Part shown: positions 3,514 to 64,000 of the stretch, in pieces | How positions within the stretch are numbered: position 1 is the first letter of the stretch | Layout: each line of letters starts with the position of its first letter | Source of the DNA: Streptomyces sp. NBC_01353 | GTDB taxonomy: Bacteria > Actinomycetota > Actinomycetes > Streptomycetales > Streptomycetaceae | Reading direction: 5' to 3' | NCBI RefSeq assembly: GCF_036237275.1 | Contig: NZ_CP108352.1 | Coordinates: forward strand, 7,130,001 to 7,194,000 | Length of the DNA: 64,000 nt | Program-made: the position numbers and the translations under genes | Notes under the pieces: generated by a model | What the model saw: only the letters and a program-made list of their open reading frames with translations | Database searches by the model: none | What the model was told of the DNA's origin: nothing

Positions 3514-4737
3514 CTACGAGACCTTCCCCGAGCTCGCCGCATGGCTTCCGCTTCCGGCCGCGGCGGTACTCATGGGCCGGGAGCCCTGGCGCAGCACCCC
3601 GGCGCCGAGCACCAGACCGAACGCGAGCAGGGTGACCAGGCCGAAGGAGAACATCAGCGAGGTCGCGTCGGCGATGCCGCCGATCGCCGACGGGGCGATG
3701 AGACCCGAGGTGTACGTGATGGTGGCGACGCCCGCGATGGCCTGGCTGGGGTTGGGGCCACTGCGGCCGGCCGCGGCGAAGGCGAGCGGGACGACGACGG
3801 CGACCCCGAGTCCGATGAGACCGAATCCGGCCATCGCCACGGCCGCGTGCGGGGCGAAGACCACCAGCAGCCCGCCGATGGTCGCGGCGACGCCTCCGAC
3901 CCGTACCGTCCGTACGGCGCCGAACCGGTCCACCACGCGGTCTCCGACCAGCCGGGCGATGGCCATGGTCAGCGCGAAGGCGGTGGTGGAGGCCGCGGCG
4001 ACCCCGGCCGAAGAGCCGAGCTCGTCCCGCAGATAGACCGCCGACCAGTCCAGGCTCGCGCCCTCGGCGAACACCCCGCAGAAGCCGATGGCGCCGATGA
4101 TCAGGGCGGACTTCGGCGGCAGCGAGAAGCGCGGCGGCGGCTCCTCGTCAGGGGCGCTCTGCAGATCGAGGACGCCCTGGCAGAGGACGAGGCCGAGCGC
4201 GGTCAGGACGAGGGCCGCGACGAGGTGGTGGAGGCGCGCGTCCGCGCCGAGGTGGGCGGCGACGGTGCCGGCGGCCGAGCCGAGGAGCGCGCCCACGCTC
4301 CACATGCCGTGCAGGCTGGACATGATCGACTTGTCGAGACGGTTCTCGACCTCGACGCCGAGGGCGTTCATCGCCACGTCGGACATGCCCGCGGTGGCGC
4401 CGTAGACGAAGAGCACCGCGCAGAGCCCGTAGATGTTCGGGGCGAGCGACGGCAGGATCAGGGCCATCGTCCAGAGCGCGAGCAGCCCGCGCAGCGCCGT
4501 GCGGGCGCCGAAGCGGTGGCTGATGGCACCGGCCAGGGGCATGGCGAGCGAGGCGCCGATGGCCGGGAAGGCGAGGGCGAGTCCGAGTTGGCCCGCGCTC
4601 ACGTCGGCGTGGTCCTGGATCCACGGGATGCGGGTGGCGAAGCTGCCGGTGACCGCGCCGTGGACGCAGAAGACGGCGGCGACGGCGAATCGGGCCCGCC
4701 GCAGCCGCTCGGTACTGAAGACAGTCTCGCCCGTCAT
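3514..4737 (-). CDS. MFS transporter, YbjJ-like
   Basis: 407 aa with 12 predicted membrane segments. It starts at ATG 4737 behind a good ribosome site (GGGAGGG). The pattern of short cytoplasmic loops and the motif SHRFGARTALRG between helices 2 and 3 is that of the major facilitator superfamily. The sequence style (FATRIPWIQDHADVS near the N-terminus) recalls the YbjJ/FucP-like branch. The substrate is unknown. It is divergent from a ROK regulator across 102 bp that contain a palindrome, so it is probably the regulator's target. A sugar or sugar-derivative substrate is an inference from that neighbour only. Confidence 0.82.
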   Translation of the reverse strand: MTGETVFSTERLRRARFAVAAVFCVHGAVTGSFATRIPWIQDHADVSAGQLGLALAFPAIGASLAMPLAGAISHRFGARTALRGLLALWTMALILPSLAPNIYGLCAVLFVYGATAGMSDVAMNALGVEVENRLDKSIMSSLHGMWSVGALLGSAAGTVAAHLGADARLHHLVAALVLTALGLVLCQGVLDLQSAPDEEPPPRFSLPPKSALIIGAIGFCGVFAEGASLDWSAVYLRDELGSSAGVAAASTTAFALTMAIARLVGDRVVDRFGAVRTVRVGGVAATIGGLLVVFAPHAAVAMAGFGLIGLGVAVVVPLAFAAAGRSGPNPSQAIAGVATITYTSGLIAPSAIGGIADATSLMFSFGLVTLLAFGLVLGAGVLRQGSRPMSTAAAGSGSHAASSGKVS

Positions 4738-55673: not shown

Positions 55674-55758
55674 GCGGGGCGGTCGCACCCGGGGTACCAC
55701 GTCCTGTTGCGCCGCGGGGTGCATCTGCGTCGTTTCGACCGTTGTCGGTGCGAGGACC

Positions 55759-55764
55759 TAATCT
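55759..55764 (+). promoter_or_regulatory. -10 box TAATCT for the leaderless SMC operon
   Basis: TAATCT ends 7 bp before the GTG start codon at 55772, so the transcript would begin at or next to the start codon. A plausible -35 (TTCGAC or TCGACC, 18-19 bp upstream) is weak. Confidence 0.6.
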
Positions 55765-55771
55765 GTGCATC

Positions 55772-57298
55772 GTGACTTCGCCTGCCTCGACGGACCTCGT
55801 TCCGCCCCAGCTCAGCGCGGGGCCGCGGCCCGCGCAGGGCCCGGCCGCCGACGAAGGGCTCGCGCGGCGCCTCCGCGCGCTCGCGTGCACCGCGCCGCTG
55901 CACGACCTGGACACCCGCAAGGCGAACCTGGCCGGTGAGTACTCGGTCTACGCGATGGCCGAGGTCGCTCTTTCCGCCATCGACCTCGTCACGCTCAATA
56001 TGGACTTCGACACCGGCGCCGACCACGAGCAGATCGTCGCCCGTCTCCTGCCCCGCGTCGCCGCCCAGGCCCCCGCCCGCCCCGCCGCCGAACATGAGCG
56101 CGTGGCCCGCTGGGTCCTGGAGAACCTGATCAACGTCGGCAGCGTCGACCGCGGCTTCCGCGCCGTCTACGGCACCTTCGGTGCCGACGGCGTCTACACC
56201 CGCCGCGACTACGACTTCAAGCTGATCGAAGAGGTCCCCGGCTACGGCGGAGGCGTCTACCTCCGCACGACCGACGAAGCGGTCAACGTCCTCGTCGGCG
56301 CCCTCGACACCGACGTCACGAGCGCACAGATAGCGGCTGAGGTGAAGCTCGAGGTCCTGATCAGCCGCGGCCGGCTCGCCGACGCCCAGCTGGCCGCCGA
56401 GCAGGCGCGCTACCGGACCGTGCAGTACGCCGAAAGCCTCCGCAGGACCCTGGAGGCGACCCGGCGCAACGTCCGCGCCGTGGACTGGCTGCAGGCCGTT
56501 CCGGACATGATCGCCGAGGCGCTGGACCACGTCGCCGACCGCTACCGCCACGAGAACGCGATCCTCACCAACATCCGCAAGGCCCGCGACGAGGCCGAGG
56601 ACGCCGAGCACAAGCGCCGCGCCGCCGAGCTCGTCGACATCGTCAAGGACTGCATCCGCCGCCACACCCAGCTCCAGTCCCGCCTCCTGGAGGCCGGCCC
56701 GCTCTTCCGTGCCGAGCAGGACCGGCAGGCCTTCGCCGCGCCCACCTCGTACACGGGGATAGATCTGTACGGGCAGCTCGTCGCGCCGATCCTGCCGCTC
56801 CCCGTCGAGCAGGCGACCAGGGTCACGGACGCCTTCTTCGCCCGCGGCACGGGACTGCGCACGCCCGCCTCCGTACGCGTCGGGGACCTGGTCGAGATGC
56901 TGCTCACCCCGCCGGTCGAGCGGGAGCACCTCGGCGCGGAGATGCCCGAGCCGGACCTGATCGCCACCCCCGACGACAGCCGCTTCAGCGAGGAGCAGCT
57001 GGCGAGCGCGATGGAGCTGCTCGACCTGGAGTACGACGCCCCGCGCCGCCTCTCCGGCCTCCTCGCCGACGCTCGCCGCCGCGACCCCGACCTGCCGTAC
57101 CTGGTCGCCCTCCTCGCCGTCCACGCGGCGAGCCCCCCGGTCGGCACCGCGTACCGCCAGGGCGAGGAGCGCCTGCTCTTCGCCGTCGACGACGGCACGC
57201 AGCTGGACGACCCGGAGTTCGGGGGCGCCGACTTGATAGTGGGTACGGCGCTCCTGGACGCACTCGGCATGGCGGCGGACCGCACGGAGGCCTCATGA
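55772..57298 (+). CDS. Kleisin-like subunit (MukF/MksF/JetA-type) of an SMC-like complex
   Basis: 508 aa from GTG 55772, with no ribosome site and a -10 just upstream (leaderless). Residues 1-100 are helical and winged-helix-like; residues about 195-320 are a long helical, coiled-coil-prone region (YRTVQYAESLRRTLEATRRNVRAVDWLQAVPDMIAEAL...RHENAILTNIRKARDEAEDAEHKRRAAEL); the last 130 residues are compact. The size, helical middle and position before a KITE-like and an SMC-like gene are those of MukF-type kleisins. No DUF3375 motif can be asserted without a search. The stop overlaps the next gene by 4 bp. Confidence 0.62.
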   Translation: MTSPASTDLVPPQLSAGPRPAQGPAADEGLARRLRALACTAPLHDLDTRKANLAGEYSVYAMAEVALSAIDLVTLNMDFDTGADHEQIVARLLPRVAAQAPARPAAEHERVARWVLENLINVGSVDRGFRAVYGTFGADGVYTRRDYDFKLIEEVPGYGGGVYLRTTDEAVNVLVGALDTDVTSAQIAAEVKLEVLISRGRLADAQLAAEQARYRTVQYAESLRRTLEATRRNVRAVDWLQAVPDMIAEALDHVADRYRHENAILTNIRKARDEAEDAEHKRRAAELVDIVKDCIRRHTQLQSRLLEAGPLFRAEQDRQAFAAPTSYTGIDLYGQLVAPILPLPVEQATRVTDAFFARGTGLRTPASVRVGDLVEMLLTPPVEREHLGAEMPEPDLIATPDDSRFSEEQLASAMELLDLEYDAPRRLSGLLADARRRDPDLPYLVALLAVHAASPPVGTAYRQGEERLLFAVDDGTQLDDPEFGGADLIVGTALLDALGMAADRTEAS

Positions 57299-58002
57299 CC
57301 ACGGACCGGGCGGAAACCGGGACGATGGCGCGGACCGCGCCCATGGACGGATTCCCGCCACCGGCCGAGGCGGCACTCGTCGACGGTTCTCCGTCGCCGG
57401 CCGTGGCCACGCAGGGGCACACGCCACTGGGCGACCGCGAGCCGGCAGCCGAGCCCCGGCTCCCGGCCGGGCCGTCGGTCGACGGGGTGGCGCCGGGCAT
57501 CGGCGCGGTACCCGTCGCGGACGAGACCGCGTTCGTGTCCGGTCCTTCGGCGGCCGGGAGTGAGCTTGCGGCCGATGGTCTGCCCCCGGCCGAGCCCCGG
57601 CTCCCGGCCGAGCCCCGGCTCCCGGCCGAGCCCCGGCTCCCGGCTCAGGGCCTGCTCCCGGTTCAGGGCCCGCCCGCGGGCGAGAGTTCCCTCGAGGGGG
57701 AGGTCGGCGCGTCCGACGCCGGCTCGCTCCCGAGCCGTGAGGCTCCGGTCGCCGCAGAGGAGACGCCCGCCGCGCGCGGCGCCGCGCCCGTCATGGCCGT
57801 CGGGGTCGTGTCGGCGCCCGCGTCGGCGCGCCGGAGTCCGGCGCCCTTTGTGCGGGCCGTCCGGCTGAGCGCCCCCGCGGGCGCGTCCGGCGACGTCCCG
57901 CCCCGGCGGAAGGCGGTGCGCGTCACCCCGGTCCGCCTGCCCCTGCCGCGCCCCGTCCCCACCGCACCGCCGACCACCCCCACCGAGGAGCCCCAGCCGT
58001 GA
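57295..58002 (+). CDS. Disordered Pro/Ala-rich protein, linker gene of the SMC-like operon
   Basis: 235 aa, ATG 57295, overlapping the upstream stop (ATGA) and, at its end, the next start (GTGA), so all three genes are translationally coupled. It has no recognisable domain: residues 1-165 are Pro/Ala/Gly/Glu-rich with EPRLPA repeats. The last 60 residues are strikingly basic (RRSPAPFVRAVRLSAPAG...PPRRKAVRVTPVRLPLPRP). No counterpart exists in MukBEF, MksBEF or Wadjet operons that I know. The basic tail could bind DNA or the ATPase; this is inference. Confidence 0.75.
   Translation: MTTDRAETGTMARTAPMDGFPPPAEAALVDGSPSPAVATQGHTPLGDREPAAEPRLPAGPSVDGVAPGIGAVPVADETAFVSGPSAAGSELAADGLPPAEPRLPAEPRLPAEPRLPAQGLLPVQGPPAGESSLEGEVGASDAGSLPSREAPVAAEETPAARGAAPVMAVGVVSAPASARRSPAPFVRAVRLSAPAGASGDVPPRRKAVRVTPVRLPLPRPVPTAPPTTPTEEPQP
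57590..57643 (+). repeat. Three perfect tandem 18-bp repeats (plus a separate fourth copy)
   Basis: The 18-bp unit CCGAGCCCCGGCTCCCGG occurs in perfect tandem at 57590-57607, 57608-57625 and 57626-57643. An identical copy lies at 57449-57466. Each encodes EPRLPA in the linker protein. Confidence 0.92.
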
Positions 58003-58895
58003 GCGAACACCACGCCGAGCACGCCGACGCGTGGAGCGAGCCGGAGCCCCCGCACACCCCCGCCGCGCCCGCCGCCGTCACCCCCGCGGACGCCGCCGAC
58101 GCCGCACGGCTCGTCTCGTTCGGGCTGCAGCCCAAGCTGCTGCCCGCCCGCGACGCCGAGTACGCCGAGCTGCTCCGGCGCTACCGCGAGGACCCCGCCT
58201 TCGCGCGCCTCGCCGACGCCGTCGCCACCGGCCTCGGACTCGTCGTCCTCGAGGTCTCCCCGCGCGCGGGCATGGCCGTCACCGCCGGCGAGGACTCCGT
58301 CTTCGCCGTCCGCATGGGCGACTACGCCCGCCGCGCCTCGACCGACTCCGCCGACCGGTTCCTGCACGGCCTCGCCCACCTCGCCGTCGCCGCCATGGCC
58401 TTCCCCCGCCCCGAGGACCTCGCCGACGACGGCTACATCGGCCGCCTCACCGTCAACGGCGTCGACTCCTTCGTACGCCAGGCCTGCCGTCGGCTCGAAG
58501 AGCGCGCCGAGGAGCAGGGCGAGAACACCGACCCCGCCTCCGACGCCCCCGGCCTGGAGGCCGCCTGGCGGATCTACGCCCGCCGCAGCTCCACCGGCGC
58601 CACCAAGGACGCCCGCCGTCTCGCCGGCTCCACGACCGGCATCGTCGGCAAGGCCGTCACCTTCCTCACCGAATCCGGGTTCCTCCAGCGCACCGGAGAC
58701 GACGCCGGCGGCGCCTACCGCACCACCGCCCGCTATCAGCTCCAGGTGCGCGACATGGCGGGCAGCGCCGCCATGGCCGAGCTCCTCGACCTCGGCGTCG
58801 TCCCCGTCAGCGACGGCTCCGCGACCCTCCTCCCGCCGCCCGACGGCGACGACCTGGAGCTCGCCGCCGACGCCGGCCTGCCCTTCCACGCGTAA
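57999..58895 (+). CDS. KITE/MukE/JetB-like subunit of the SMC-like complex
   Basis: 298 aa from GTG 57999, which overlaps the previous stop by 4 bp. After a disordered 35-residue N-terminus it is a compact helical protein with winged-helix features (LLPARDAEYAELLRRYREDPAFARLADAVATGLGL; STTGIVGKAVTFLTESGFLQR; YRTTARYQLQVRDMAGSAAMAELLDLGV). That composition and its place between the kleisin-like and the SMC-like genes suit a MukE/KITE partner. Direct motif proof is lacking. The SMC-like gene starts 57 bp later. Confidence 0.6.
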   Translation: MSEHHAEHADAWSEPEPPHTPAAPAAVTPADAADAARLVSFGLQPKLLPARDAEYAELLRRYREDPAFARLADAVATGLGLVVLEVSPRAGMAVTAGEDSVFAVRMGDYARRASTDSADRFLHGLAHLAVAAMAFPRPEDLADDGYIGRLTVNGVDSFVRQACRRLEERAEEQGENTDPASDAPGLEAAWRIYARRSSTGATKDARRLAGSTTGIVGKAVTFLTESGFLQRTGDDAGGAYRTTARYQLQVRDMAGSAAMAELLDLGVVPVSDGSATLLPPPDGDDLELAADAGLPFHA

Positions 58896-58952
58896 CCGCC
58901 CCGCGCCACCGCCCCGCGTCATCACCGAACCAGTCGACGAGAGTCCGCCGCC

Positions 58953-61900
58953 ATGTACGAGCTGTCCCGGGTCCGCCTCTACTCCATCGGTCCCGCCGGT
59001 GCGCGCTACGCCGACACCGTCCTGGACCTGCGCGGAGTCGGCGCGCCCGTGCCCCACCCCGCCCCCACCCAGGCGGAGTTCTTCGAGGAGGAGCCGGTCG
59101 GCCCGCCGCGCCGCCCCGCGCCCGCCGGCGTGCTCTTCCTGGAGAACGGCGGCGGCAAGTCCGTCCTCCTGAAGCTGATCTTCTCGGTCATGCTCCCCGG
59201 CCACCGCAACACCCTCGGCGGCGCAAGCTCCGGCGTGCTCCGCAAGTTCCTGCTCGCCGACGACTGCGGCCACGTCGCCCTGGAGTGGCAGCACACGCTC
59301 ACGGGCGAGCTCGTCGTCGTCGGCAAGGCCAGCGAGTGGCGCGGCCGCCAGGTCTCCAACGACCCTCGGAAGTTCGCCGAGGCCTGGTACTCCTTCCGCC
59401 CCGGACCCGGCCTGAGCATGGACAACCTCCCGGTCGCCGAGTCCACCGCCGTCCGCGCGCCCGTCGAGGGAGCCTCCGGCGCGCAGGGCCGCCGCCGCAC
59501 CATGAAGGGCTTCCGCGACGCCCTCACGGAGGCGGGAAAGGCGTACCCGCACCTGGAGGTCTACTGGGAGGAGATCCACGACCGCTGGAACGAGCACCTC
59601 GGCGACCTCGGTCTCGACCCCGAACTCTTCCGCTACCAGCGGGAGATGAACGCCGACGAGGGTGAGGCCGCCGGCCTCTTCGCGGTCAAGAAGGACTCCG
59701 ACTTCACCGACCTGCTCCTGCGGGCCGTCACCGACACCCGTGACACCGACGGCCTCGCCGACCTGGTCGGCGGCTTCGGCAACAAGCTCGGCCGGCGCGC
59801 CGAACTGACCGCCGAGCGGGACTTCACCGCGGGCTCCGTCGACCTCCTCGGACGGATCGTCGAAGCCGCCGGGACCCGGGCACGCGCGCGTGACGTCCAC
59901 GCGGCGTCCGAGCGCCGCACCCGTACGCTCGCCCGCCGCCTCTCCGCCCGCGCCACCGAGGAACGAGGCCGCACCGCCGAACTCGCCCAGCAGGTCACCT
60001 CCGCCGCGCACGCCGTCTCCGAGGCCGAGACCGCGCGCGGACGCAGCTCCCTCATCGCCGCCGAACTGGCCTACCGGCACGCCTCCCTGGCGCTGACCGT
60101 CGCCGAGAAGGGCGCCGCCTCCCAGCGCCGCGAGCTCACCGACGCCCGCACGCTGCACGCCGCCTGGCAGGCCGCAGAGGCCGTGCTCCGCAACCGGGCG
60201 GCCGGCGACCGCTCCGCGCGCGTCGCCGCCGCGATCCGCGAGGCCGAGCGTGACGCCGCGCCCGCGCTCGCCGCGCGCGCCAAGGCCGCCGCCGATCTCG
60301 TACGCGCCCTGCACGCCGCCGCCGAGGAGGGTGAGCGGCACGCGGCCGAGGAGGAGGAGCGCTCCGCGGCCCTCCAGGACGCAGGCGAGACCGCCCACCG
60401 CGACGCCACCGCTGCCGCCACCGAGGCCCAGCGCGCCCGCAGCGAGACCGGACACCTGCGGCAGCGCCTCGCCGAGGTCGAGCAGGAGACCGCCGAGGCG
60501 GTACGGGCGGGCTGGCTCGACGACACCGCCCCGGACGCCGACCCGGCACGCGCGGCCCTCGCCGCGAGCGACGCCGAGAAGACCACGGTCGCCGCCTGGG
60601 ATGCGGCCCGCGACGCGGCCCGTACCGCCGCCGACCACGCCCGCGAGGCCGCGGCCGCCGAGTCCCGCGCCGAACTCGCCGCCGCCCGCGCCACGGACGC
60701 CGCCGAGGCGGCCGAGAACGCCTACGACGCGGAACGCCGCGCCGCCGAGTCCCTCGCCACCGACGCACGCCTGGCCGAACTCCTGAGCCTGCCGGCCGCC
60801 CGGTCGACCTCCCCGTTCCCGGGCCAGCGCGCGGGGGAGACCGACGGAGCGGGCACCGAGGGCCAGAGCGCCGTCAGCGGCCGCGGCCCGGACGCCGAGC
60901 CGGGCGGCCCCGGACGGACGACGGGGGCGCACGGAGTTCCCGGCCAGAACGGGCGAGGCATCGGCTCCGGCGAGCCCGGCACGGGCTCGGGCGCGGATGC
61001 CGCCCCCGGCGCCGCCTTCGGGCTCGCGGGCGCGCCGGACTCCGGTTCCGAAGGAACCCCCGGCCCGCTCACGGTCACCGAGTTCGACCGGTACGCCGAC
61101 GAGCTCCGCCGACTGCTCGACCAGTCCATCGGCTCCGCCGAGCGTCAGCTCTTCGACCTGCGTACCGCCGCCGCCGACGACTCCCGCATCCTCGGCGCCC
61201 TCGGCGACGGCGGACTGCTGCCGCCGGGACCGGACGTGCTCGCCACCGTCGAGTACCTCGGCGAACAGGGCATCCCGGCGCTCCCGGGGTGGCGCTATCT
61301 CGCCCAGGCCGTCGACCCCGCCGACCACGCTGCCGTCCTGGCCGCCCGCCCCGAGCTGGTCGACGGCGTCGTGATCACCGACCCCGTCTCGTACGCCCGC
61401 GCCCGTGAGGTGCTGAGCACGGCAGCCCTGCTGCCGCGCTCCACCGTCGCCGTCGGCACCGCCGCCGCGCTCCTCGCGCCCGTACCGAGCCCGGACTCCG
61501 GCGAGGACACGGGCGTCTTCCTCGTCCCGCCGAACCCGGCCATGCACGACGAGCACGCCGCCGACGAGGAGCGGCACGCCCTGCGCGCCCGCGCCGTCGC
61601 CCGCGACGAGGAGATCCGCACGCTCGCGGCCCGGCTCACCGGCGACCGTTCGCTCGCCGCCCGGATCGGCTCGTGGCGAGCCGACTGCCCGCCCGGCATG
61701 ATCGCCGAACTGGCCGCCGTCGCCGCCGCCGCGCGCGAGACCGCGGAGGCGGCCGCGGCCACGCTCGCCGAGGCCCGGACGGTACGGGCGGAGGCCGACG
61801 AGGCCGCCGCCGACGCCGCCCGCGTACGGGACGAACGCCAGGAGGCCGCCCAGCGCGCCCGCCGTGTCGCCGACGCCCTCGCCGGCCTGGCGTTCCGGCT

Positions 61901-63788
61901 GCGCGAGCGGTCCGCCTGGCAGGCCAAGCTCCGCGAACTGGCCGACGACGCCGCCGAGTCCGAGGCCCGCGCCCAGACCTGCCTGGAGCGGGCCCGCGCC
62001 GCCGACGAGGACCGCCGCGCCGCCCAGCGGGCCGCCGACGACGCCCACCGCACCGCTCGCGCCCTGCGCGCCGAACGGGCCGAGATCGCCGGCGCTCCCG
62101 ACCAGCTCCCCGAGGAGGACGCGGCCGCGCCCCGTACCGCGCTCCCGACCCTCCGCGAGGCGTACCGCGCCGCGTCCCAGCTGTACGAGAAGGTCGGTGT
62201 CGGCGCCGACCTGCGCGCCGAACAGGCCCGCGCCGAGAGCGACGAGTCGGCCGCTCTCGCCGAGCTCGACCGCCTCACCAACAAGGTCCGCACCCGCGCC
62301 GAGCAGCTCCTGGAATCCACCGACGGCGCCGACGGCCCGTCCCGCCAGGCCGCGGCCGCCCGCGCCGAAGCCCTGGTCCAGATGCTGGAAACCCGCGCGT
62401 CCGAGGCGAGCGAGAAGCTCGGCCGGCTCCGCGGCGAGGCCGAACGACTGGCCCCCGAGGACGGCGAGTCGCACACCGACCTGCCCGAGGACCAGGTCCC
62501 CGCCGACGCCGAGCAGGCCCAGACCCTGCTCCGCACCGCGACCACCGAACTCGCCGCCCGTAGCGATGCCCTGGAAGCCGCGCGCACCGCGCACGCGAGC
62601 CTCCTGAGGGCCCACCGCGCCGCCGAGGACGCCGCGGGCGGCTTCGACGAGACCGCGGCGCTCCTTCGCGACCTGCTGCGCGACCACGGAGAGGACGAGG
62701 AGGACGGCCCGGAGACGTACCCCGGCACGCTGGAGGAGGCGCGGCACACCGCCGCCGAGGCCCGCCGCGCGCTGCGCGCCTGCGCCGCCGAGCTCTCCTC
62801 GGCCGACGCGGCGGTCCGCGAGGCCGGCGACATCCTCGTCCGGCACGCCAACTCCACCCGCTACGAGCAGGTCCGCACCCCGGCCCGGCAGCAGATCCGT
62901 GAACTGCCCGCCGCCGCGCTGCCCGAGCACGCGGGGAAGTGGGCCGAGGCGTTCGCGCCCCGCCTCCGGGTCCTCACCGACGAGCTGGAGCAACTGGAGC
63001 GCAACCGCGACTCCATCGTCGACCGGCTGCGCGGACTGGTGGAGTCGGCGCTGACCACGCTCCGCTCGGCGCAGCGCCTGTCGCGGCTGCCCGAGGGCCT
63101 CGGCGAGTGGTCGGGGCAGGAGTTCCTGCGTATCCGCTTCGAGGAGCCGGACCAGGCCACCCTCACCGAGCGGCTCGGGGAGGTCGTCGACGAGGCGACC
63201 CGCGCCGCCGTCAAGAAGAACTCCGACATGCGCCGGGACGGAATGTCCCTGCTCCTGCGGGGCGTTCAGGCCGCGCTCGAGCCGCGCGGCATCGCGGTCG
63301 AGATCCTCAAGCCGGACGCCGTGCTGCGGGCCGAGCGCGTACCGGTCGGGCAGATGGGCGACGTCTTCTCCGGCGGCCAGCTCCTCACCGCCGCCATCGC
63401 GCTGTACTGCACGATGGCCGCCCTGCGCTCCAACGACCGGGGCCGGGACAAGCACCGGCACGCGGGCACGCTGTTCCTCGACAACCCGATCGGCCGCGCC
63501 AACGCCACGTACCTGCTGGAGCTCCAGCGTGCGGTCTCGGACGCCCTCGGTGTCCAGCTGCTGTACACGACCGGTCTGTTCGACACGACCGCGCTCGCGG
63601 AGTTCCCGCTGGTCATCCGGTTGCGCAACGACGCCGACCTGCGGGCCGGGCTGAAGTACATCAGCGTGGAGGAGCACCTGCGCCCAGGGCTGCCGCAGCC
63701 GAGCGCGGAGGGCGAGGCGATTCACGGCGAGATCACCGCGACCCGGATGTTCCGACGCTCGCAAGTCGAGGAGTCCGTCCCGCAGTAG
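58953..63788 (+). CDS. MukB/JetC-like SMC-type ATPase with coiled coils and hinge
   Basis: 1,611 aa from ATG 58953. The P-loop is LFLENGGGKSVLL (residues 61-73, K69, S70); the first glycine of GxxxxGKS is a leucine. Coiled coil about residues 310-605 and 840-1330, between them a hinge-like globular region (about residues 705-830, GWRYLAQAV...VVITDPVSYARAREVL) preceded by a 90-residue Gly/Pro-rich insertion (about 612-705). The head C-terminus has the ABC signature VFSGGQLLTAAIAL (about 1471-1484) and Walker B TLFLDNPIGRAN (about 1506-1517), where Asn stands at the usual catalytic Glu. Such ATPases fold or segregate DNA or cleave plasmids (Wadjet). No JetD gene follows. Confidence 0.72.
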   Translation: MYELSRVRLYSIGPAGARYADTVLDLRGVGAPVPHPAPTQAEFFEEEPVGPPRRPAPAGVLFLENGGGKSVLLKLIFSVMLPGHRNTLGGASSGVLRKFLLADDCGHVALEWQHTLTGELVVVGKASEWRGRQVSNDPRKFAEAWYSFRPGPGLSMDNLPVAESTAVRAPVEGASGAQGRRRTMKGFRDALTEAGKAYPHLEVYWEEIHDRWNEHLGDLGLDPELFRYQREMNADEGEAAGLFAVKKDSDFTDLLLRAVTDTRDTDGLADLVGGFGNKLGRRAELTAERDFTAGSVDLLGRIVEAAGTRARARDVHAASERRTRTLARRLSARATEERGRTAELAQQVTSAAHAVSEAETARGRSSLIAAELAYRHASLALTVAEKGAASQRRELTDARTLHAAWQAAEAVLRNRAAGDRSARVAAAIREAERDAAPALAARAKAAADLVRALHAAAEEGERHAAEEEERSAALQDAGETAHRDATAAATEAQRARSETGHLRQRLAEVEQETAEAVRAGWLDDTAPDADPARAALAASDAEKTTVAAWDAARDAARTAADHAREAAAAESRAELAAARATDAAEAAENAYDAERRAAESLATDARLAELLSLPAARSTSPFPGQRAGETDGAGTEGQSAVSGRGPDAEPGGPGRTTGAHGVPGQNGRGIGSGEPGTGSGADAAPGAAFGLAGAPDSGSEGTPGPLTVTEFDRYADELRRLLDQSIGSAERQLFDLRTAAADDSRILGALGDGGLLPPGPDVLATVEYLGEQGIPALPGWRYLAQAVDPADHAAVLAARPELVDGVVITDPVSYARAREVLSTAALLPRSTVAVGTAAALLAPVPSPDSGEDTGVFLVPPNPAMHDEHAADEERHALRARAVARDEEIRTLAARLTGDRSLAARIGSWRADCPPGMIAELAAVAAAARETAEAAAATLAEARTVRAEADEAAADAARVRDERQEAAQRARRVADALAGLAFRLRERSAWQAKLRELADDAAESEARAQTCLERARAADEDRRAAQRAADDAHRTARALRAERAEIAGAPDQLPEEDAAAPRTALPTLREAYRAASQLYEKVGVGADLRAEQARAESDESAALAELDRLTNKVRTRAEQLLESTDGADGPSRQAAAARAEALVQMLETRASEASEKLGRLRGEAERLAPEDGESHTDLPEDQVPADAEQAQTLLRTATTELAARSDALEAARTAHASLLRAHRAAEDAAGGFDETAALLRDLLRDHGEDEEDGPETYPGTLEEARHTAAEARRALRACAAELSSADAAVREAGDILVRHANSTRYEQVRTPARQQIRELPAAALPEHAGKWAEAFAPRLRVLTDELEQLERNRDSIVDRLRGLVESALTTLRSAQRLSRLPEGLGEWSGQEFLRIRFEEPDQATLTERLGEVVDEATRAAVKKNSDMRRDGMSLLLRGVQAALEPRGIAVEILKPDAVLRAERVPVGQMGDVFSGGQLLTAAIALYCTMAALRSNDRGRDKHRHAGTLFLDNPIGRANATYLLELQRAVSDALGVQLLYTTGLFDTTALAEFPLVIRLRNDADLRAGLKYISVEEHLRPGLPQPSAEGEAIHGEITATRMFRRSQVEESVPQ

Positions 63789-63801
63789 CAGCGCCGCGTA
63801 C

Positions 63802-63841
63802 GAGAACGGCCCGACCCCCGAGAGGGGACCGGGCCGTTCTC
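63802..63841 (+). terminator. Strong terminator of the SMC-like operon
   Basis: A 12-bp perfect stem GAGAACGGCCCG (63802-63813) / CGGGCCGTTCTC (63830-63841), with an inner CCCC/GGGG pairing, begins 13 bp after the SMC-like gene's stop. Confidence 0.85.
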
Positions 63842-63966: not shown

Positions 63967-64000
63967 TCAGGCGGCCTCGGACAGCGCGTGCGTCTCCGTC
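63967..64000 (-). CDS. C-terminus of a minus-strand gene entering from the right (partial)
   Basis: On the minus strand the last ten codons read TETHALSEAA and end at TGA (63969-63967). The rest of the gene is beyond the window, so its identity cannot be judged. If real, it is convergent with the SMC-like operon, so no JetD-type gene follows directly in the same orientation. Confidence 0.35.
   Translation of the reverse strand, partial: TETHALSEAA

Follow-up and report, generated by a model that had tools for sequence, protein, structure and literature searches.

The window, a 64,000 nt stretch of Streptomyces sp. NBC_01353 with a GC content of about 72%, carries an operon of four open reading frames, here called A, X, B and C, that probably represents the JetABC part of a type III Wadjet system from which JetD was lost once, early in the family, and which has been kept as a housekeeping second condensin beside SMC-ScpAB. 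We also lean towards the fuller account in which a single disarming event, at the base of the Streptomyces family, turned a plasmid-restricting SMC complex into an unrecognised second condensin, its operon being joined by a translated ORF that is held to its frame and overlaps and is free in length and sequence. A search of the open-licence literature (titles and abstract openings) returned nothing on this operon, on JetABC lacking JetD in Streptomyces, or on a linking ORF of this kind. In the available portion of a 2026 study of how Streptomyces chromosomes are organised, SMC is the only condensin named (PMC13121528).

Arrangement of the operon

All four ORFs are on the forward strand. A (55772-57298) predicts a JetA3-type, MukF-like kleisin of 508 aa, or of 518 aa if an alternative TTG start at 55742 is used. 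X (57295-58002) is a hypervariable linking ORF of 235 codons, B (57999-58895) predicts a JetB/MukE-like KITE protein of 298 aa, and C (58953-63788) predicts a JetC3-type SMC ATPase of 1,611 aa. X overlaps A and B by 4 bp each, as the first-pass annotation of this DNA had described for the first three genes, and B and C are separated by 57 bp.

The kleisin, KITE and SMC layout proposed in that annotation for the 508, 298 and 1,611 aa products is supported by profile and fold matches, and all four ORFs are present. A matches the PADLOC type III Wadjet JetA3 profile PDLC00567 (E = 1.4e-186, profile positions 6-493 of 504) and C matches the corresponding JetC3 profile PDLC00588 (E = 0). The comparison with MukF, MukE and JetB folds, suggested earlier as a check, was carried out on A and B and pointed to MukF for A and to MukE/JetB for B, with weak matches from models of modest confidence. 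MukF chains top both structure-match lists for A, and for B the Foldseek hits ranked 1-14 are all MukBEF, MukEF, MukE or JetABC entries, none of them at E <= 0.001. B has no match in PADLOC, where the profile also missed 3 of 4 JetB proteins from JetD-bearing loci, and it is 29-50% identical to the product of the gene located between JetA and JetC in 25 JetD-bearing loci.

Downstream of C, a hairpin on the forward strand (63802-63841; -38.4 kcal/mol, z = -5.35 against shuffles) is a likely terminator. Of the strong terminator claimed earlier at this place, the strong hairpin stands, but it has no T run, and a scan in which a T run was required did not include this hairpin among its calls. The next gene does point towards the operon, being a convergent 156-aa ORF that ends at 63967 (3967-4437 on the minus strand of L031) and carries a MPDPVRTAAVRAVM-type stretch. 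Small convergent genes like it were seen behind C in L044, L047, L168 and L173. A sensor kinase, roadblock, DUF742 and GTPase set (L031 4828-9115), which resembles a conservon, lies downstream of the operon in many of the core loci defined below.

Absence of JetD

No JetD gene was found behind C in the window. In the genome of the strain itself (99.98% complete) there is no match to the Pfam JetD_C profile, which matches in the C. glutamicum control, or to the PADLOC JetD3 profile, which detects JetD in accessory loci with E-values down to 1e-122; the absence is that of JetD by these two profiles, which a nuclease unrelated to JetD would have escaped. The lack of a JetD/MksG-type nuclease after the ATPase, recognised in the first-pass annotation, is thus confirmed for the operon, and the search for a distant JetD homologue that had been proposed extends it to the whole genome.

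Annotation of 73 loci distinguished 48 core loci, in which A is at least 84% identical to that of the window, from 25 accessory loci, in which it is 31-52% identical. One core locus, L075, ends inside C, and JetD is absent from the stretch examined in all 47 that could be tested. JetD is present behind C in all 25 accessory loci, 8 from the genus and 17 from named actinobacteria, a set that was partly picked, seven of the eight genus loci having been chosen through a nearby JetD match and the 17 named ones through the JetA of a JetD-bearing copy. An unpicked figure is available from the 150 genomes of the genus, 13 of which have at least two JetA matches owing to sporadic second copies: strong JetD3 matches (E < 1e-40) occur in 11 genomes, all among these 13, the remaining 137 having none. 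At E <= 0.001, JetD3 is matched in 21/150 genomes, and the ten with weak matches only, which show no link to second JetA copies, probably carry other JetD types. JetD_C matches were found in 18/150. In G049 and G129 they lie about 34 kb from each contig end and are mirror-placed, as expected of terminal inverted repeats.

Sixteen further loci were inspected and JetD was found in eight. Among the remaining eight, three (L195, L200 and L206) reach the end of their contig within C or ahead of it, L208 is a core copy that breaks off after A, L196 is a fragment of C only, no C could be recognised in L201 and L202, and no JetA was found in L210.

Relationships of the core JetA proteins

The careful JetA tree includes 37 of 61 rows, badly trimmed and other rows having been left out and the root not inferred; a first tree had very long branches, some of them due to badly trimmed rows. 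The 15 core rows form a single clade (support 100/99) that is joined first by L206, a second copy cut short by its contig end (87/77), then by four JetD-bearing copies from the genus (91/87), and then by six more (100/100). An accessory copy in G058, a member of the genus, is near-identical to one in Streptomyces sp. SAJ15. JetD is taken to be ancestral because it is found in all three Wadjet types, as judged from profile cross-matches, and since the core clade is nested among JetD-bearing copies, one loss is enough to account for it. A putative single loss of JetD early in Streptomycetaceae, followed by retention under purifying selection, explains the pattern seen in these sequences.

Distribution of the core operon

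A JetA3 match was found in 147/150 genomes of the genus and in 0/14 control genomes. Two of the three genus genomes that have no match, G050 and G073, contain the C-terminal part of JetC3 at a contig end, and the third, G079, is 78% complete and has no JetC3. Across the family, A is matched in 198/200 genomes representing 17 genera, of which at least one has an accessory copy only. This is G567, the sole genome of genus g256 sampled, where an accessory JetABCD locus was the only one found. The core operon is accordingly present in at most 197/200 genomes and 16/17 genera, the core status of genera with no listed locus resting on E-values (<= 1e-236 for each best genome, with accessory copies reaching 1e-140 at best). 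The two family genomes lacking A are G685, which has C, and G622 (99% complete), which has neither A nor C. G121 (L216), which is counted in the 147, has no more of A than its C-terminal quarter; B is next to it, and so is a C with two separate stretches of match. G121, G567 (L217) and G622 are candidate natural losses, or assembly gaps, and because a few such genomes are without an intact core copy, the operon appears not to be indispensable.

In a sample of the order, A was found in 104/104 genomes of the genus and in 3/15 of other families, one of these only at 6.6e-6, and in a sample of the phylum 17/396 genomes matched, comprising 12 of the genus and 5/384 others. The downstream kinase is matched in 34/48 core stretches and an upstream GntR gene in 29/48 (the window is counted, adjacency does not always hold and paralogues are not excluded), whereas none of seven flanking genes was found in any of the 25 accessory stretches. 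On this sequence comparison, the behaviour of the core operon is unlike that of a defence island.

It is unlikely that the complex still serves in immunity, with JetABC using loop extrusion to sense small circular DNA and then recruiting a nuclease encoded elsewhere, or blocking replication or transfer without cutting. According to the available part of PMC10586767, JetD-bearing relatives are directed against plasmids and the sensing of DNA shape resides in JetABC, and other JetD-family genes occur in some genomes of the genus. However, near-universal presence, mostly as a single copy and with shared neighbours, is unlike that of a defence gene, and the genome of the strain has no JetD by either profile. 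The location also differs, as Streptomyces Wadjet systems are found mostly toward the chromosome ends, with more than 43% of Lamassu and Wadjet in the outermost 10% at either side of the chromosome (PMC10482375, in the portion available), whereas the distance from this operon to the nearer contig end is 1.29 Mb, about 15% of the 8.47 Mb contig. A system against plasmids or phages that relies on a separate effector, one of the roles put forward in the first-pass annotation, becomes less likely on the same grounds, the operon being often syntenic across the family. The other, a chromosome organiser, is retained as a predicted role that is consistent with near-universal presence in the family and intact ATPase motifs. 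Loss of the cutting subunit from a complex that is near-universal in the family argues that it is probably a chromosome organiser rather than a defence system.

The linking ORF

X was surveyed in 106 distinct core loci (rows dropped were 42 that are not core, 33 duplicates, 26 lacking A and 3 lacking B). In 94 of them X starts via a 4-bp overlap on the stop of A and ends via a 4-bp overlap on the start of B; the search for the gene order across relatives, also proposed earlier, placed X between A and B in most core loci. X is missing and A overlaps B directly in 7 of the 106, as is the case in 23/25 accessory loci; in 4 others X ends 8 nt inside B, and one, L089, is unclassified. Members of the family outside the genus either have or lack X, even inside one genus (L169 lacks it and L178 has it), which indicates more than one gain or loss of X. 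On the simplest reading of these sequences, a coupling ORF, X, was inserted into an ancestral A-B junction.

The 94 X ORFs start with ATG (54), GTG (31), CTG (7) or TTG (2), and their lengths take 54 distinct values between 12 and 245 codons, with 11 loci at 12 codons. At 235 codons the X of the window is the second longest, and it is one member of a hypervariable group, not an addition peculiar to this genome. The X frame is free of stops over 4,808 codons, which is partly so by definition; there are 31 (125 less the 94 stops of A) and 34 stops in the other frames. A binomial test gives 53/59 (p = 2e-19), with distinct lengths taken as independent, 6 frame changes taken as given and kinship ignored. 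Whole-X dN/dS is 0.46-0.92, and taken together with the kept frame this indicates that the frame of X is selected and its sequence hardly so.

It is quite unlikely that X is a real fourth subunit, which would be a protein with a disordered tail binding to DNA or to the complex. Upstream of X there is a ribosome-binding-site-like motif in 76/94 loci (upstream of B in 93/94), the frame is kept, the last 60 codons have a dN/dS of 0.24-0.69 against four near species, which amounts to slight constraint, and blocks resembling VRAVRL and VTPVRLPLPRP are seen repeatedly in the window and in five near species. On the other side, 12 codons are enough in 11 loci and seven loci manage with A coupled directly to B, dN/dS over the whole of X is 0.46-0.92, and the codon score of X is below background. 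X has no match in Pfam, NCBIfam or PADLOC. The 235-codon ORF described in the first-pass annotation as a fourth, unfamiliar and basic-tailed protein does exist, but it is not basic as a whole, with a net charge of -7, and its variable length, hardly conserved sequence and strict frame suit an ORF for translational coupling better than a subunit. Since X starts on the stop of A and ends on the start of B, A and B would be made together, X keeping ribosomes running from A into B. If X is translated as its frame suggests, this would be an unusual form of coupling that is selected almost without regard to sequence.

Selection on A, B and C

In comparisons with six related species, A has a dN/dS of 0.05-0.14, B one of 0.03-0.15 and C one of 0.15-0.19, and from these ratios all three genes are judged to be under purifying selection. 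C contains a Walker A motif (ENGGGKS), a signature motif (SGGQ) and a Walker B motif (FLDNPIG), and the ATPase motifs are intact in 47/47 core loci. There is next to no probability that the operon is just a decaying Wadjet relic free of selection: the loss of JetD and the broken or missing copies in a few genomes are outweighed by the preserved ATPase motifs and by the purifying selection on A, B and C and the retention in up to 197/200 family genomes, the last two of which already contradict it.

Conservation of C is interrupted by a hypervariable low-complexity insert at residues about 601-700 (60753-61052, forward strand), where the mean top-residue frequency falls to 0.39 and 0.12, as against 0.74-0.98 in 50-residue blocks outside the insert and the very C-terminus. 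The segment corresponding to residues 600-734 spans 47-555 aa across the 47 core loci. In L177 and L179, both from genus g249, the N- and C-terminal parts of C are in different frames, with the break between about residues 480-530 and 690-700 and in opposite directions in the two, which is either an assembly error or a real split. C has no match in Pfam or NCBIfam at E <= 0.1 and no solved chain was found by sequence, a miss that does not prove another family. The complex is described as resembling MksBEF and MukBEF in its working and is not filed in the MukB or MksB families.

Predicted role as a second condensin

ScpA of SMC-ScpAB is present in the genome of the strain. By analogy with MukBEF, MksBEF and JetABC, dimers of C would form the ATPase ring, A would bridge the heads and B would bind A, and ATP hydrolysis would drive loop extrusion on chromosomal DNA. 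Without JetD, a finished round of extrusion could not cut the DNA, and the complex would therefore work as a second condensin beside SMC-ScpAB. Loop extrusion, the chromosomal role and coupling by X are all inferred. Chromosome folding in Streptomyces has so far been explained with SMC, ParB and nucleoid proteins; if the prediction is right, a near-universal second SMC-type complex must enter the folding models, and it might mask part of the effects of smc deletion. As armed JetABCD and disarmed JetABC occur in the same genus, the fate of a defence SMC complex left without its nuclease is directly testable.

Comparison with known systems

The operon shares with type III Wadjet (JetABCD) the JetA3 and JetC3 families, the A-B-C order, relatives within the genus and similar ATPase motifs, and differs from it in lacking JetD (47/47 core loci), in being a core gene of the family rather than sporadic and, mostly, in having X between A and B. 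In Wadjet, JetABC recognises smaller circular DNA and JetD cuts it (PMC10586767, available part). MksBEFG of Corynebacterium glutamicum and EptABCD of Mycobacterium smegmatis are likewise actinobacterial kleisin-KITE-SMC operons, but they include the nuclease MksG/JetD and act against plasmids, as stated in the accessible portions of PMC10123090 and PMC10586767. MukBEF apparently replaced SMC-ScpAB (PMC10586767, same portion). The likeness to MukBEF of Escherichia coli lies in the three subunits and in the weak fold matches of A to MukF and of B to MukE, whereas here there is no Pfam or NCBIfam match of note and ScpA is still present. MksBEF of Pseudomonas aeruginosa belongs to another Wadjet/Mks lineage. 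The loss of JetD described here would have taken place inside type III and independently of it, and the operon looks like a second, independent case of nuclease loss, within type III, that has been retained in nearly the whole family.
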